From contig NZ_CP133262.1 of NCBI RefSeq assembly GCF_030915405.1, forward strand, positions 4,046,501 to 4,110,500: a stretch of DNA of 64,000 nucleotides. Reading direction: 5' to 3'. Both the position numbers and the translations under genes were made by a program. The notes beneath the pieces are model-generated. The model did no database searches. It was not told where the DNA came from and saw only the letters and a list, made by a program, of their open reading frames with translations. The DNA comes from Neobacillus nitrireducens (GTDB lineage: Bacteria > Bacillota > Bacilli > Bacillales > Cytobacillaceae). Below, in pieces: positions 6,252 through 58,426 of the stretch (position 1 is its first letter; each line of letters begins with the position of its first letter).

Positions 6252-6599
6252 TTATTGAAGGGTGCTGCCCGATGGAAGCTGGTTCGTATACCCTTGAAAC
6301 TGCTGGTAGGACTGCTGCAGCTTTTGCTGGTCCGCGGCTTCGATAGTATACCAGCCCTTTTTAAACATCAAATCATAAAGTTCACGCTGGCAGTTTTGTG
6401 TTTCGGAAAAGATTTTCACAATGTCTTGATACAATCCTTCGTGACTGGCTTCATGCATAGGCTGAGTATATGCCGTTGTTAAATATTTTTCCGTTGCCAA
6501 TAGATCATTAATAAAATCCCGATCATTCATTTGCGGGGTTTTTGGTACTTGGGTCTCAGGGTTTTTAATCTTTTGCTGTTGACTTTGATTTTGGTTCAT
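6252..6599 (-). CDS. CotF-family spore coat protein
   Basis: A 115-residue Coat F-type (PF07875) protein. It has a glutamine-rich N-terminus followed by the family core MNDRDFINDLLATEKYLTT and a helix pair ending in FKKGWYTIEAADQQKL. Such proteins are small four-helix, ferritin-like coat components. AAGGAGGAGAG precedes the ATG. It lies downstream of another coat-type gene, with a dispersed repeat between them. The exact B. subtilis counterpart is uncertain. Confidence 0.8.
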   Translation of the reverse strand: MNQNQSQQQKIKNPETQVPKTPQMNDRDFINDLLATEKYLTTAYTQPMHEASHEGLYQDIVKIFSETQNCQRELYDLMFKKGWYTIEAADQQKLQQSYQQFQGYTNQLPSGSTLQ

Positions 6600-6620: not shown

Positions 6621-6770
6621 TTGTCTAGCTCCAGCTCCCAGCGGCTAGTGTCCTTCGCTCTCCGCCCTACGATAAGTCAACATCGAATCGCTGACGCTCT
6701 CCGTGTTTCCTTTATCTCAGTTGGAGCGCTCCAGGCCATACGCCGCTAAACGGTCGCTTCCGCTTTTCGG
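6621..6770 (-). repeat. Dispersed 3'-UTR repeat, full copy 1
   Basis: This roughly 150-bp element abuts the stop codon of the minus-strand gene at 6771. A second full copy at 34267-34412 is nearly identical over most of its length. Both contain the perfect palindrome TGGAGCGCTCCA. In the RNA sense, an early AGCGGC can pair with a late GCCGCT, closing a long-range stem. It lies just upstream of the ribosome site of the next coat gene. Confidence 0.85.
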
Positions 6771-7094
6771 TTATTGCATATTATTCAAGGGTTGCTGCTG
6801 GTTGGCATGTTGACCGAGGTGGCCTAGGATCTGTTGATAGTGTTGCTGGTGCATTTGGCAAACTTTTTCCGCTGCGGCTCTAATTTCAGGGTCCTGACAT
6901 TGCCCGGCAAAAAAGTGTGCTTTCTTCGCAGACAGCAAGTTCCACGACATCATATCGGTTAAATAAAGAGCATCCTTTGTTGATACGACTCCGGGAGGTT
7001 CTTGCATCCTCATTTGCTGATTTTGCATGTTCATATTATTCTGTTGACTTTGCATGTTATTCATATTGGGCATATTCATATTTTGTTGCTGCAT
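6771..7094 (-). CDS. Spore coat protein, YusN-like
   Basis: A 107-residue protein. It has a low-complexity Met/Asn/Gln N-terminus (about 30 residues) and then a conserved helical core (PPGVVSTKDALYLTDMMSW, AKKAHFFAGQC, HQQHYQQILGHL). This looks like the CotF-like coat proteins encoded near fadNAE in bacilli (YusN in B. subtilis, from memory). The core resembles a compact helical bundle; no signal peptide is seen. AGGAGGG precedes the ATG. Spore coat assignment is by family resemblance. Confidence 0.7.
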   Translation of the reverse strand: MQQQNMNMPNMNNMQSQQNNMNMQNQQMRMQEPPGVVSTKDALYLTDMMSWNLLSAKKAHFFAGQCQDPEIRAAAEKVCQMHQQHYQQILGHLGQHANQQQPLNNMQ

Positions 7095-15857: not shown

Positions 15858-15903
15858 TTTAATTAAATAATCTAATAATAAAAACAATTCAATAAACATA
15901 CTT

Positions 15904-16013
15904 ATCGAGAGTGGCGGAGGGACTGGCCCTTTGAAGCCCGGCAACCGGTTTTTAAACACAATAACACGGTGCTAAATCCAGCAGAGCAACAAAGCTCTGG
16001 AAGATGAGGAGAG
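15904..16013 (+). ncRNA. SAM (S-box) riboswitch upstream of metY
   Basis: The S-box landmarks appear in order: ATCGAGAGTGGCGGAGGGA, then TGAAGCCCGGCAACCGG, then a GGTGCTAAATCCAGC segment, then GCTCTGGAAGATGAGGAG. With SAM bound, the closing P1 helix frees the C-rich/G-rich hairpin at 16016 to terminate, so the sulfhydrylase gene is off when methionine/SAM is plentiful. Confidence 0.95.
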
Positions 16014-17463: not shown

Positions 17464-17526
17464 TGCTCTCGTAATATAATTTACTTAAAAAATTAACGTC
17501 TTAATTGAATATAGGATACTTGATGC

Positions 17527-17638
17527 TCTTATCAAGAGAGGTGGAGGGATGTGCCCGATGAAGCCCGGCAACCGTCAATAGTTTTTATTGAAATGGTGCC
17601 AATTCACACAAAGCGATTGCTTTGGGAGATGGGAGAAA
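17527..17638 (+). ncRNA. SAM (S-box) riboswitch upstream of metNPQ
   Basis: CTTATCAAGAGAGGTGGAGG, TGAAGCCCGGCAACCG, a variable P3 ending ATGGTGCCAATTC, and GCTTTGGGAGATGGGAGAAAGG reproduce the S-box core. A separate terminator hairpin follows at 17656. This senses SAM and lowers methionine uptake when SAM is high. Confidence 0.95.
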
Positions 17639-32791: not shown

Positions 32792-34141
<1,350 letters not shown>

Positions 34142-34266
34142 CTCTTTTTTTTCATGTGTCCTTGACACGGGTACCAGATTAGTCAGCTAGTGGCTGAACT
34201 CTTTTTTATTGTAAAGGAAATTATAAAGTATTTAATTGTGGAAAAATTGATTTAGTCCCTTTGAAT

Positions 34267-34412
34267 CCAGCTCCAGCGCCCAACGGCTAGTGTCCTTCGC
34301 TCTCCGCCCTACGATAAGTCAAGCACGAATGCGCTAACGCTCTTCGTGTTTCCTTTATCTCAGTTGGAGCGCTCCAGGCCATACGCCGCTGAACGGGCGC
34401 TTGCGCCTTTTG
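34267..34412 (-). repeat. Dispersed 3'-UTR repeat, full copy 2
   Basis: This is a second copy of the element at 6621-6770, ending four bases before the stop codon of the minus-strand lipoprotein gene. Large blocks are identical, such as GGCTAGTGTCCTTCGCTCTC and TTTCCTTTATCTCAGTTGG. Differences cluster in a variable stem (CACGAA/TTCGTG in the RNA sense), and the long-range AGCGGC/GCCGTT pairing is kept with a wobble. Confidence 0.85.
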
Positions 34413-34415
34413 TTC

Positions 34416-35063
34416 TTATCGATTATTCCTGCCCATATGATCGTCAGGCGTTAATCCATTTTCATCCTCACTTGGATTCATGCGCTGGCCTTGCGGAGAC
34501 TTTTTCATTTGCTTGATAAGCCCGTTCACTAAATTACGAGCGTTCCGGCTGGTGGAATCAAGGTTTGCCAGATTTTCTACATCCCTCATGAGGACTTTAT
34601 TGTCAGTGACGAAGACATGGTAATATCTTGGAACGACAGACATCGCTGTTTTTTTCACTTGGTCGGCCGTCATATTCCGATTTTTGGAATCTGTCTTATA
34701 AGCAATCAATACTTCTTGGTCTGTGACAAGTGTGGCAACATCATTGACATTGGGGATTTCTGTACTTAATTTACTAATGATATTGGCCACCTGTTCGCGG
34801 TTTAAGGCAGTGTAGTGGTCATTGGCCGTATTATCATTCATGAGTGGACTTTTTTGATGACGGACAAAACCATAATTGTTGCTTGCGTTACGAACACTAC
34901 GACTTGCCCCTTCATTGTAAAGGTCATGCCTTTTATTATTTACATTGATGGTATTACCGCTTTCCTCATACACATCACGGTTGCTCATATCCTTCGAACA
35001 TCCTGTTAAAGCGGTCAGCGTACATAATCCCAGGATTATGACTAATTTTTTCAAATGAAACAC
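34416..35063 (-). CDS. yutC: YhcN/YlaJ-family sporulation lipoprotein (YutC-like)
   Basis: A 215-residue lipoprotein with signal peptide and lipobox LTGC (Cys22). The YhcN/YlaJ domain follows in the second half (EQVANIISKLSTEIPNVNDV, ATLVTDQEVLIAYKT, VVPRYYHVFVTDN). The C-terminal tail is polar and probably disordered. Relatives are found in spores or germination membranes. AGGAGGTGTTTC precedes the ATG. It is adjacent to yutD as in B. subtilis. Confidence 0.8.
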   Translation of the reverse strand: MFHLKKLVIILGLCTLTALTGCSKDMSNRDVYEESGNTINVNNKRHDLYNEGASRSVRNASNNYGFVRHQKSPLMNDNTANDHYTALNREQVANIISKLSTEIPNVNDVATLVTDQEVLIAYKTDSKNRNMTADQVKKTAMSVVPRYYHVFVTDNKVLMRDVENLANLDSTSRNARNLVNGLIKQMKKSPQGQRMNPSEDENGLTPDDHMGRNNR

Positions 35064-48358: not shown

Positions 48359-48819
48359 TCCGTATCCCTCCAACTCATAGTTAGAAACTCCAATCCTATA
48401 ATATCATAAAATAAAAAATTCTCACATCTTTATGAGCTAATATTCGCAACAGCGGCAATATTAAAAAAAAAATAAAACGATGAGCGAGATGCATATTTCT
48501 TTTCTATTAAAGTTAATTAATTTATAAATATTGCTTGATAATCCTCTAAAAGTAGCATAAGATGTATGGAGGATAGATTGTTAAATTTCTGTGACATAAA
48601 AAGCAAAAATTTGTGACATTCATAGAAAGTATTTATACTCTTAGCATACTAAATTCTGCGATAATCCATATCCACACCATTGAAGTTCGTTTTTTTTAGA
48701 CTGATACGTGAATTATCTCACATACATTTTTCTATTATTCAAAATAAAAAAGGTTAAAGCAGTGGAAGCTAAGAAAAAGAGGGTTTATTCAAAAAAATTA
48801 AAAGGTGGAAGTGATCACT
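48359..48819. promoter_or_regulatory. yumC-ndh divergent intergenic region
   Basis: This 461-base AT-rich gap has no gene that I can support. It holds the ndh promoter TTGTGA (48611-48616) / TATACT (48634-48639) with a 17-base spacer. TGTGACAT occurs twice, at 48590-48597 and 48612-48619, exactly 22 bases apart, the second overlapping the -35. The leader from the start near 48646 is about 175 bases. Confidence 0.6.
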
Positions 48820-50037
48820 TTGAGAAAGCCTAAAATTGTTATTCTTGGTGCTGGTTACGGTGGACTAATGACAACAGTTCGCTTACAAAAATTAATCGGT
48901 GTTAATGAAGCGGATATTGTATTAGTGAATAAAAATGATTACCATTATGAAACGACATGGCTCCATGAGGCATCAGCAGGCACGTTGCATCATGATCGTG
49001 TCCGTTATGATATTAGTGGTGTAATTGACCGCAGCAAAGTCGAATTTGTACAAGATACAGTCGTAGAAATCAACAAAGAAGAAAAGAAAGTTGTCTTAGA
49101 AAAAGGTGAAGTCAACTATGACTACCTTGTGATCGCCCTTGGCGGCGAACCGGAAACGTTCGGTATTAAAGGATTAAAAGAACATGCATTTGGAATCTCT
49201 AATGTTAATTCTTCTCGTCAATTACGTGAGCATATTGAATATCAATTTGCCACATACAATATGGAAGAAGAAAAGAACGACAACCGTTTGACGATTGTTG
49301 TTGGTGGTGCCGGATTTACAGGAATTGAGTTCTTAGGTGAATTAACTAATAGAATCCCGGAATTATGCCAAGAGTATGATGTGGATTTTCATAAAGTAAA
49401 AATTATTTGTGTGGAAGCTGCACCAACTGTTCTCCCAGGTTTTGAACCAGAATTAGTGAATTACGCCGTTTCGCAATTGGAAAGAAAAGGTGTGGAATTC
49501 TTTATTGGCACTGCCATTAAGGAAGCTACCGAAGAAGGAATTTTTGTTGCAAAAGGTGAGGAAGAGCCACGTGAAATTAAGGCTGGTACCGTGGTTTGGG
49601 CTGCCGGAATTCGTGGAAACTCGATTGTAGAAAAATCAGGTTTCGAAGCAATGCGAGGAAGAGTGAAAATTCAGCCAGACTTACGCGTTCCCGGTTTTGA
49701 GGATATCTTCATGATTGGTGACAGTGCGCTAATGATCAATGAGGAAATCAATCGTCCATATCCTCCGACTGCACAAATTGCCATGCAGCAAGGGGAAGTT
49801 TGTGCCCGCAATATCGCAGCATTAGTTCGTAATAAATCAGAGCTTGAAACTTTCCACTTCGATAATAAAGGGACAGTTTGCTCGCTTGGTGAAGATGATG
49901 CAATCGGTGTGGTTTTTGGCAAAAAACTAACTGGAGCAAAAGCATCCTTCATGAAAAAAGTCGTCGATAACCGCTCGCTTTACATGATTGGCGGCGCAGG
50001 CCTAGTATTGAAAAAAGGAAAGTTTAACGTATTTTAA
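48820..50037 (+). CDS. yumB: Type II NADH dehydrogenase (YumB)
   Basis: A 405-residue NDH-2: FAD site [18 protein letters not shown] site [28 protein letters not shown] and [14 protein letters not shown], and the quinone-side [13 protein letters not shown]. It oxidises NADH and reduces menaquinone at the membrane without pumping protons. The TTG at 48820 after AAAGGTGGAAGTG matches B. subtilis YumB. A truncated dispersed repeat begins right after its stop. Confidence 0.92.
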
Positions 50038-50040
50038 TAA

Positions 50041-50084
50041 GAAGAGCGAAGTCAACTAGCCGCAGGGCGCTGCAGCTAGACAGT
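50041..50084 (+). repeat. Truncated dispersed repeat after ndh
   Basis: GAGCGAAGTCAACTAGCC through GCTGCAGCTAGACA aligns with the distal end of copies 1 and 2 in RNA sense (GAGCGAAGGACACTAGCCGC ... GCTGGAGCTAGACA). It starts three bases after the yumB stop, on the same strand as the gene, keeping the orientation seen at the other copies. Confidence 0.75.
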
Positions 50085-50118
50085 TATCAAAGTTCAATTA
50101 TTAAAATAAATTATTGCG

Positions 50119-50147
50119 AAAGGGACAGAGAAATCTGTCCCTTTTTG
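50119..50147 (+). terminator. ndh terminator
   Basis: AAAGGGACAGA and TCTGTCCCTTT with a four-base loop and T-run; it lies beyond the repeat remnant. Confidence 0.9.
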
Positions 50148-54051: not shown

Positions 54052-54330
54052 ATGTACCCTTATCGAAGTCACTACCCAGTACAAGATCAAAGGTTTATAG
54101 GTTTTGGATTGCCTTTGGCAATAGGTGGGCTAAGCTTTTTAGGAGGTTTAATAGGAGGCGGACTAGGTGCTTCATTTGCGGCACGTCCATTTTACGGAGG
54201 ATTCGGTTACCCTGGATATGGGTATCCTGGTTTTGGAGCTCCTGGTTTTGGAGCTCCTGGTTTTGGAGCTCCTGGTTTTGGAGCTCCCGGTTTTGGAGCT
54301 CCTGGCTTTGGAGCCCCGTATTACTATTAA
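54052..54330 (+). CDS. Glycine-rich protein with GFGAP pentapeptide repeats
   Basis: A 92-residue protein: a short N-terminus, a small hydrophobic glycine zipper (GGLSFLGGLIGGGLGASFAA), then a Gly/Tyr/Phe-rich stretch and about six tandem GFGAP units. The units are encoded by near-identical 15-base repeats from about 54231. It ends in YYY. AAGGAGG sits at optimal spacing from the ATG at 54052 rather than 54046. Glycine/tyrosine-rich small proteins are common in Bacillus coats, but no direct evidence of that here. A terminator follows. Confidence 0.7.
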   Translation: MYPYRSHYPVQDQRFIGFGLPLAIGGLSFLGGLIGGGLGASFAARPFYGGFGYPGYGYPGFGAPGFGAPGFGAPGFGAPGFGAPGFGAPYYY

Positions 54331-57955: not shown

Positions 57956-58426
57956 ATGGAAAAAAGACAATTCTTTGGAGGATTTCCGGGACAACCTGGT
58001 TACCCACAAATGGGAGGATTTCAGCAACCAGGCTACCCGCAAATGGGAGGATACCAGCAACCAGGCTACCCGCAAATGGGAGGATACCATCACCCAGGCT
58101 ATCCACAGATGATGGGCGGCCAGCAGCAACATGGGTACCCATACCACGGCTACCCGCAAATGATGGGCGGACAGCATTCAGGATTCCCACAAGGCATGGG
58201 CGGGTTTCCGCAAATGATGGGCGGACAGCATTCAGGATTTCCGCAAGGCATGGGTGGATTCCCGCAAATGATGGGCGGACAGCAATCAGGATTCCAGCAA
58301 GGCATGGGTGGGTTTCCGCAAATGACAGGCGGACAGCAATCAGGATTCCCACAAGGAATGGGCGGCTTCCAGCAAGGTGGGCAAAAACCACCAACTAAAC
58401 CCACACAACGTAAAGAAAAGAAATAA
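57956..58426 (+). CDS. GYPQM/GGQQSGFPQ tandem-repeat protein
   Basis: A 156-residue protein almost wholly made of repeats: first an 11-residue unit (about GGYQQPGYPQM, three to four copies), then an 18-residue unit (about GGQHSGFPQGMGGFPQMM, four copies). A basic tail KPPTKPTQRKEKK closes it. The DNA repeats are 33 and 54 bases. It has no signal peptide and almost no charge until the tail. AGGAGGCG precedes the ATG. It resembles structural surface or coat proteins, but I do not recognise a family. Confidence 0.7.
   Translation: MEKRQFFGGFPGQPGYPQMGGFQQPGYPQMGGYQQPGYPQMGGYHHPGYPQMMGGQQQHGYPYHGYPQMMGGQHSGFPQGMGGFPQMMGGQHSGFPQGMGGFPQMMGGQQSGFQQGMGGFPQMTGGQQSGFPQGMGGFQQGGQKPPTKPTQRKEKK

Follow-up and report, generated by a model that had tools for sequence, protein, structure and literature searches.

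A structured repeat family of Bacillaceae that is probably mobile and aimed at the 3′ ends of genes

A structured repeat of Neobacillus nitrireducens probably belongs to a non-autonomous mobile family of Bacillaceae that is aimed at the 3′ ends of genes. We prefer this reading because occupancy of orthologous sites is patchy, placement is tight and the members share their ends. The element consists of a 145-nt structured core, often followed by an AT-rich 3′ tail of roughly 20–60 nt. Copies were noticed in a 64,000-nt stretch of the genome (hereafter, the window) in an earlier reading made without database searches, which weighed a role at mRNA 3′ ends against mobility targeted to gene ends. 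Targeted mobility fits better than a required role, because most relatives lack the element at the orthologous site while keeping both stop codon and terminator.

The sequence-only reading described two near-identical copies starting close to stop codons. Both are present on the minus strand (Table 1), are 91–92% identical in ungapped blocks, and begin 3 nt (copy 1) and 4 nt (copy 2) past a TAA. Copy 1 has no 3′ tail and sits between two small same-strand genes; a Shine-Dalgarno-like AAGGAGGAG separates it from the Coat_F ORF, and the 107-aa ORF on its other side has no Pfam match at E 0.001. Copy 2 follows the TAA of the YhcN/YlaJ lipoprotein ORF, with GAAC at 34412–34415 as its 5′ flank. Its conserved tail, missing in copy 1, is common to other copies in the genome (blastn 94–98%) and adjoins a hairpin with an A-tract on the minus strand and a T-tract on the plus strand, which also lies behind the convergent IS transposase gene. 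Copy 3 keeps the 3′ end and tail but is missing roughly 100 nt from the start of the core, its exact limits being set by eye. It lies between the stop of the ORF at 48805–50037 and a hairpin with a T-tract, and all three window copies are behind a same-sense stop. Elsewhere, the window contains two SAM riboswitches on the plus strand (15899–16010 and 17526–17635; Rfam RF00162, 91 and 83.9 bits) and tandem repeats of 54 nt (58148–58417), 15 nt (54196–54315) and 42 nt (947–1072).

Table 1. Repeat copies in the window with their neighboring features, and the Y1 transposase gene of the genome (locus L337, numbered separately)
Feature	Position	Strand	Basis or remark
Copy 1, 145-nt structured core	6623..6767	-	cmsearch 164.9 bits, E 1.6e-39
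107-aa ORF	6771..7094	-	TAA stop 3 nt before copy 1
115-aa Coat_F ORF, directly downstream of copy 1	6252..6599	-	Pfam PF07875, E 2e-21
Copy 2, structured core	34265..34410	-	cmsearch 152.2 bits, E 2.5e-36
Copy 2, AT-rich 3′ tail	34208..34264	-	alignments; tail type C by eye
Imperfect hairpin beside copy 2 3′ end, putative terminator	34181..34207	.	read by eye
215-aa YhcN/YlaJ sporulation lipoprotein ORF	34416..35063	-	Pfam PF09580, E 3.8e-33
IS transposase ORF with integrase core, convergent with copy 2	32795..34141	+	Pfam rve_2, rve, HTH_21
Copy 3, deleted remnant	~50041..50130	+	cmsearch 23.5 bits, E 4.7e-4, hit 49967-50081
RAYT-like Y1 transposase	L337 1459-2076	+	overlaps start of comM-like gene

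The fold proposed from the sequence is borne out by clear covariation. We aligned the 132 of 142 usable copies that had both ends, reduced them to 73 by removing near-duplicates, and dropped one more (L307). The resulting 72 diverse copies share a consensus of 32 pairs in nine helices, in which 95.1% of cells are paired and 22 of the 32 pairs show two-sided changes. Two-sided cells number 330, compared to 103 in shuffled alignments and 25–49 when partners are slid. The family covariance model has 72 rows, which include close genome mates of the window copies and exclude the window copies themselves. The overall shape is one long irregular hairpin whose internal loops rank among the most conserved parts; the invariance of the 17-base core is partly due to search selection, as most copies were collected with that core.

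Several comparisons bear on which strand folds. RNAalifold, applied to 53 of the 56 copies in the genome, gave −94.2 on the strand originally proposed and −73.8 on the other. Against dinucleotide shuffles, the minus strand folds well in both copy 1 (z −4.79) and copy 2 (z −3.50), whereas the plus strand does no better than shuffles in copy 1 (z −1.58) and better in copy 2 (z −3.88). In the 72-copy alignment, G-U cells outnumber A-C cells by 77 to 17, an excess that favors the proposed strand as the one that folds, either as RNA or as single-stranded DNA. The long-range AGCGGC/GCCGCT pairing was found just as the sequence-only reading had it. The palindrome TGGAGCGCTCCA is likewise there as described, but its self-pairing is missing from the consensus fold, which instead joins its second half to GGAG..GC in the 3′ arm; in many relatives the site is not a palindrome. 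We considered TGGAGCGCTCCA as a functional site and rejected it because it is not kept in relatives.

The family is abundant and widespread. Allowing up to 3 mismatches in a 19-base core, we counted 56 cores in the 5.15-Mb genome (24 forward, 32 reverse), compared to one forward and one reverse match for a reversed-pattern control. The core was found in 34 of the 60 genomes searched, this one included, and a search with an exact 17-base core gave at least 118 more stretches in named Bacillaceae genomes. Genera among the matches listed are Neobacillus, Siminovitchia, Lederbergia, Oceanobacillus, Halobacillus, Pontibacillus, Virgibacillus, Mesobacillus, Cytobacillus, Niallia, Alkalihalobacillus, Bhargavaea and others. 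The plasmid, phage and IMG/VR collections contained no match to the repeat, and an Rfam scan of the window and the loci given listed no hit above the gathering score over any element. A literature search, with subscription papers mostly outside its scope, returned no description of the family, and the element's sequence strings were absent from open-access full text.

To define placement, we started from 168 cores and dropped 26 whose 5′ end exceeded 4 mismatches, leaving 142 usable copies: 54 from this genome and 88 from 81 named loci, cores near locus ends being skipped. The upstream gene is same-sense for 73 copies and opposite-strand for 64, and 5 have none. The claim of a fixed orientation after stop codons therefore holds in part: enrichment behind same-sense stops is strong, but an opposite-strand gene lies upstream of 64 of the 142. 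Equally, the outcome is mixed when set against a spread over both orientations without enrichment at stops, as both orientations do occur. Forty-five of the 142 begin no more than 5 nt from a same-sense stop, compared to 1.26% of 5,640 intergenic positions drawn at random from these loci. The count of 45 is a minimum, because our home-made gene caller missed small genes such as the 107-aa ORF before copy 1. Among the 73 copies with a same-sense upstream gene, distances to the stop fall at −4 to 5 nt (45 copies) and 6 to 14 nt (6), with none at 15 to 37 nt and the remaining 22 at 38 nt or more. The adjoining stop is TAA or TAG in 44 of 45 cases, whereas TGA ends 120 of 691 other genes (p 0.006, a value that is too small because copies are related by descent). 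A TAAG/TAG-like 5′ junction occurs in 44 of the 142, but the motif alone does not explain placement: 15 of these 44 copies are at a stop, compared to 178 of 5,244 motif sites.

The other end of the element often meets a terminator. On the 3′ side, 59 of 142 copies have an A-tract plus hairpin, the foot of a terminator, that begins within 95 nt of the core, compared to 541 of 3,216 random positions (17%); 13 of 142 (9%) have one on the 5′ side, and 83 copies have no 3′ hairpin in the same test. This test, with a different A-run and energy rule, replaced an earlier strict one that gave 42 of 133 in four contexts. By context, the 3′ hairpin is present in 29 of 53 copies whose neighbors are both opposite, 18 of 38 convergent copies and 2 of 9 divergent copies. 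Enrichment is absent in co-directional gene pairs (7 of 33; null 15%). According to these counts, the effect rests on the both-opposite and convergent contexts.

Only 4 of the 142 copies overlap an ORF call, and some are in rRNA spacers, where neither stop nor terminator is involved. Of the spacers behind 23S rRNA in this genome, two have a copy right at the rRNA end, one contains a different core and 12 have neither; a copy in Bacillus sp. FJAT-49711 is likewise behind 23S. Elements directly past the 23S rRNA 3′ end were seen at L146, L147 and L148 (23S-5S spacers of this genome) and at L321, and two different cores occur behind 23S rRNA 3′ ends within one genome. The "empty" 23S-5S spacers keep AAAGCG, so loss is possible there.

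Comparison of orthologous sites revealed patchy occupancy. Between rplJ and rplL, 2 of 20 same-genus relatives are filled, 1 has a remnant and 17 are empty. At engB, 18 of 20 are empty and 2 carry a different core, while our genome carries the present one; the different cores imply at least two independent insertions into one short gap, in the same orientation. In the nearest relative, G019, the flanks of 9 insertions of our genome could be located; 8 of these sites are unoccupied and the ninth carries a member of a different subfamily, two of the nine being matched by the upstream flank only. The stop is retained at empty sites and, as judged by eye, is usually followed after 0 to ~25 nt by a hairpin wherever the alignment extends over both flanks. 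These native stops led us to reject the idea that the element supplies the stop codon; in this genome, the TAG stop of rplJ includes the element's G. Inspection by eye of the empty/filled pairs at rplJ, L094, L115, L116, L130 and L099 showed no target-site duplication, and at L099 17–18 nt of native sequence are missing at the compared site. Most empty sites have probably not yet been hit rather than lost their copy.

The ends define a wider family than the core. In the loci we fetched, both family ends occur no more than 320 nt apart in 218 distinct stretches. The core between them is exact in 168, a variant or fragment in 20 and a different one in 26; the other 4 stretches are short. The covariance model picks up sister cores weakly, by way of the ends they have in common. 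By eye, a loose TAAG...CTTA match as terminal inverted repeats is discernible in tailed copies and missing from untailed ones. We recognized no ORF-bearing end pair among the fetched loci, one 2.7-kb pair being left out. Tandem neighbors less than 400 nt apart form 6 pairs in 118 named loci. Sister-core elements of ~120 nt also form head-to-tail arrays at L051 (~156–650), where two element kinds alternate, and at L245 (~1628–2005). At L113, L127 and L121, the 3′ tail is followed directly by a repeat of ~14–24 nt from the 5′ end of the same element, as would be left by the loss of a second copy. In one further copy (L142, G000 2866362–2866520), about 100 nt of unrelated sequence split the core.

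Could the element instead be a functional 3′-UTR RNA, kept behind stops to protect mRNA 3′ ends, modulate termination or bind protein? Covariation with a strand preference, conserved internal loops and the 45 of 142 starts within 5 nt of a same-sense stop all agree with such a role. However, it predicts a constant position downstream of a same-sense gene, and by our gene caller, which misses some small genes, the upstream gene is same-sense for just 73 of 142 copies and on the opposite strand for 64. Together with the patchy occupancy at orthologous genes, the copies with several hundred divergent neighbors and those in operons and rRNA spacers, this makes the functional RNA rather unlikely. 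Random insertion followed by selection, with survivors only between stop and terminator or behind terminators, would explain why just 4 of 142 copies overlap ORF calls, and insertions are tolerated at gene ends. Selection of this kind fits poorly with the complete gap at 15–37 nt behind same-sense stops next to 51 copies within 14 nt, the avoidance of TGA stops, the one-sided hairpins (59 of 142 on the 3′ side, 13 of 142 on the 5′ side) and at least two insertions of like orientation into the engB gap. We regard it as very unlikely.

A further candidate is a REP/RAYT-type element moved on single-stranded DNA by a Y1 (HUH) transposase. A hairpin near the 5′ end, the TAAG/TAG-like junction in 44 of 142 copies and the lack of a visible target duplication are consistent with this, and a search with the PF01797 profile located the sole Y1 transposase found in the genome, a single-copy RAYT-like gene beside comM. 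No element ends flank that gene, and the element is about four times the length of a REP and has no GTAG-type tag. PF01797 has no match in G019 (47 cores) or G033 (44 cores), whereas the six same-genus genomes without cores each have at least one. The copy-rich genomes without Y1 show that it is not needed to keep copies, although past mobility by Y1 is possible; overall, we consider a REP/RAYT-type element improbable. It is also doubtful, if conceivable, that the element is RNA-mediated, with the folded sense RNA or its copy guiding insertion between stop and terminator and behind 23S rRNA; such an element would have exchangeable cores, shared ends and a putative trans enzyme.

Known repeats resemble the family in part. 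The REPs of enterobacteria are, like our element, often near stop codons: 446 of 4,072 predicted REPs in E. coli are within 15 nt of one, and such REPs can lower translation (PMC12306157). They are single palindromes of 20–40 bp with a GTAG or CGTC tag, unlike a 145-nt core with covariation over nine helices, and the 5′ end of our element is mostly 0–5 nt from the stop. The bcr1 repeats of the Bacillus cereus group (147–167 bp), described as dispersed, structured, non-coding and intergenic with mobile-element traits, share these features, and a similar length, with the present family (PMC6542083, PMC2267715). Judged by their description, bcr elements differ in being confined to the B. cereus group and in their association with a TTTAT motif, whereas our family occurs in many other genera with TAAG/TAG-like 5′ junctions.

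Bacterial MITEs such as RUP, NEMIS and ERIC are characterized as non-coding, high-copy elements of 70–300 bp beside genes (PMC3733652), and the present element is similar in size, lack of coding capacity, copy number and gene-adjacent position. It differs in that its core ends without a clear terminal inverted repeat, no target duplication was seen, and no parent transposon was recognized among the fetched loci. Group IIC introns insert beside terminator hairpins, and our element likewise adjoins such hairpins. However, it is far too short, has no intron ends and no RT, and lies on the other side of the hairpin, as read on the folding strand.

Returning to a non-autonomous mobile family, we propose that insertion would be directional and occur at the 3′ ends of genes. 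Behind a gene that runs in the same direction, the element would land 0–5 nt past TAA or TAG. Its 3′ end would often abut the A-tract at the foot of a terminator hairpin. Recognition of the element, by its ends or as a folded strand, may fall to a putative trans-acting enzyme. At its 5′ end, the element has an A-tract with a GCG-NAAG-CGC hairpin that seems to resemble the target, a likeness that could explain the head-to-tail arrays. In about one third of copies, the element RNA would form the start of an mRNA 3′-UTR. Any effects on termination, decay or translation would be side effects; by analogy with the close-by REPs of E. coli, copies behind stops could affect translation (PMC12306157).

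If this reading is correct, many Bacillaceae have dozens of genes per genome with a recently arrived structured 3′-UTR, delivered by a mobility system so precise at gene ends that stop codon and terminator survive. It would account for lineage-specific 3′-UTRs and rRNA spacers of Bacillaceae, and the family would serve as a marker toward the enzyme.
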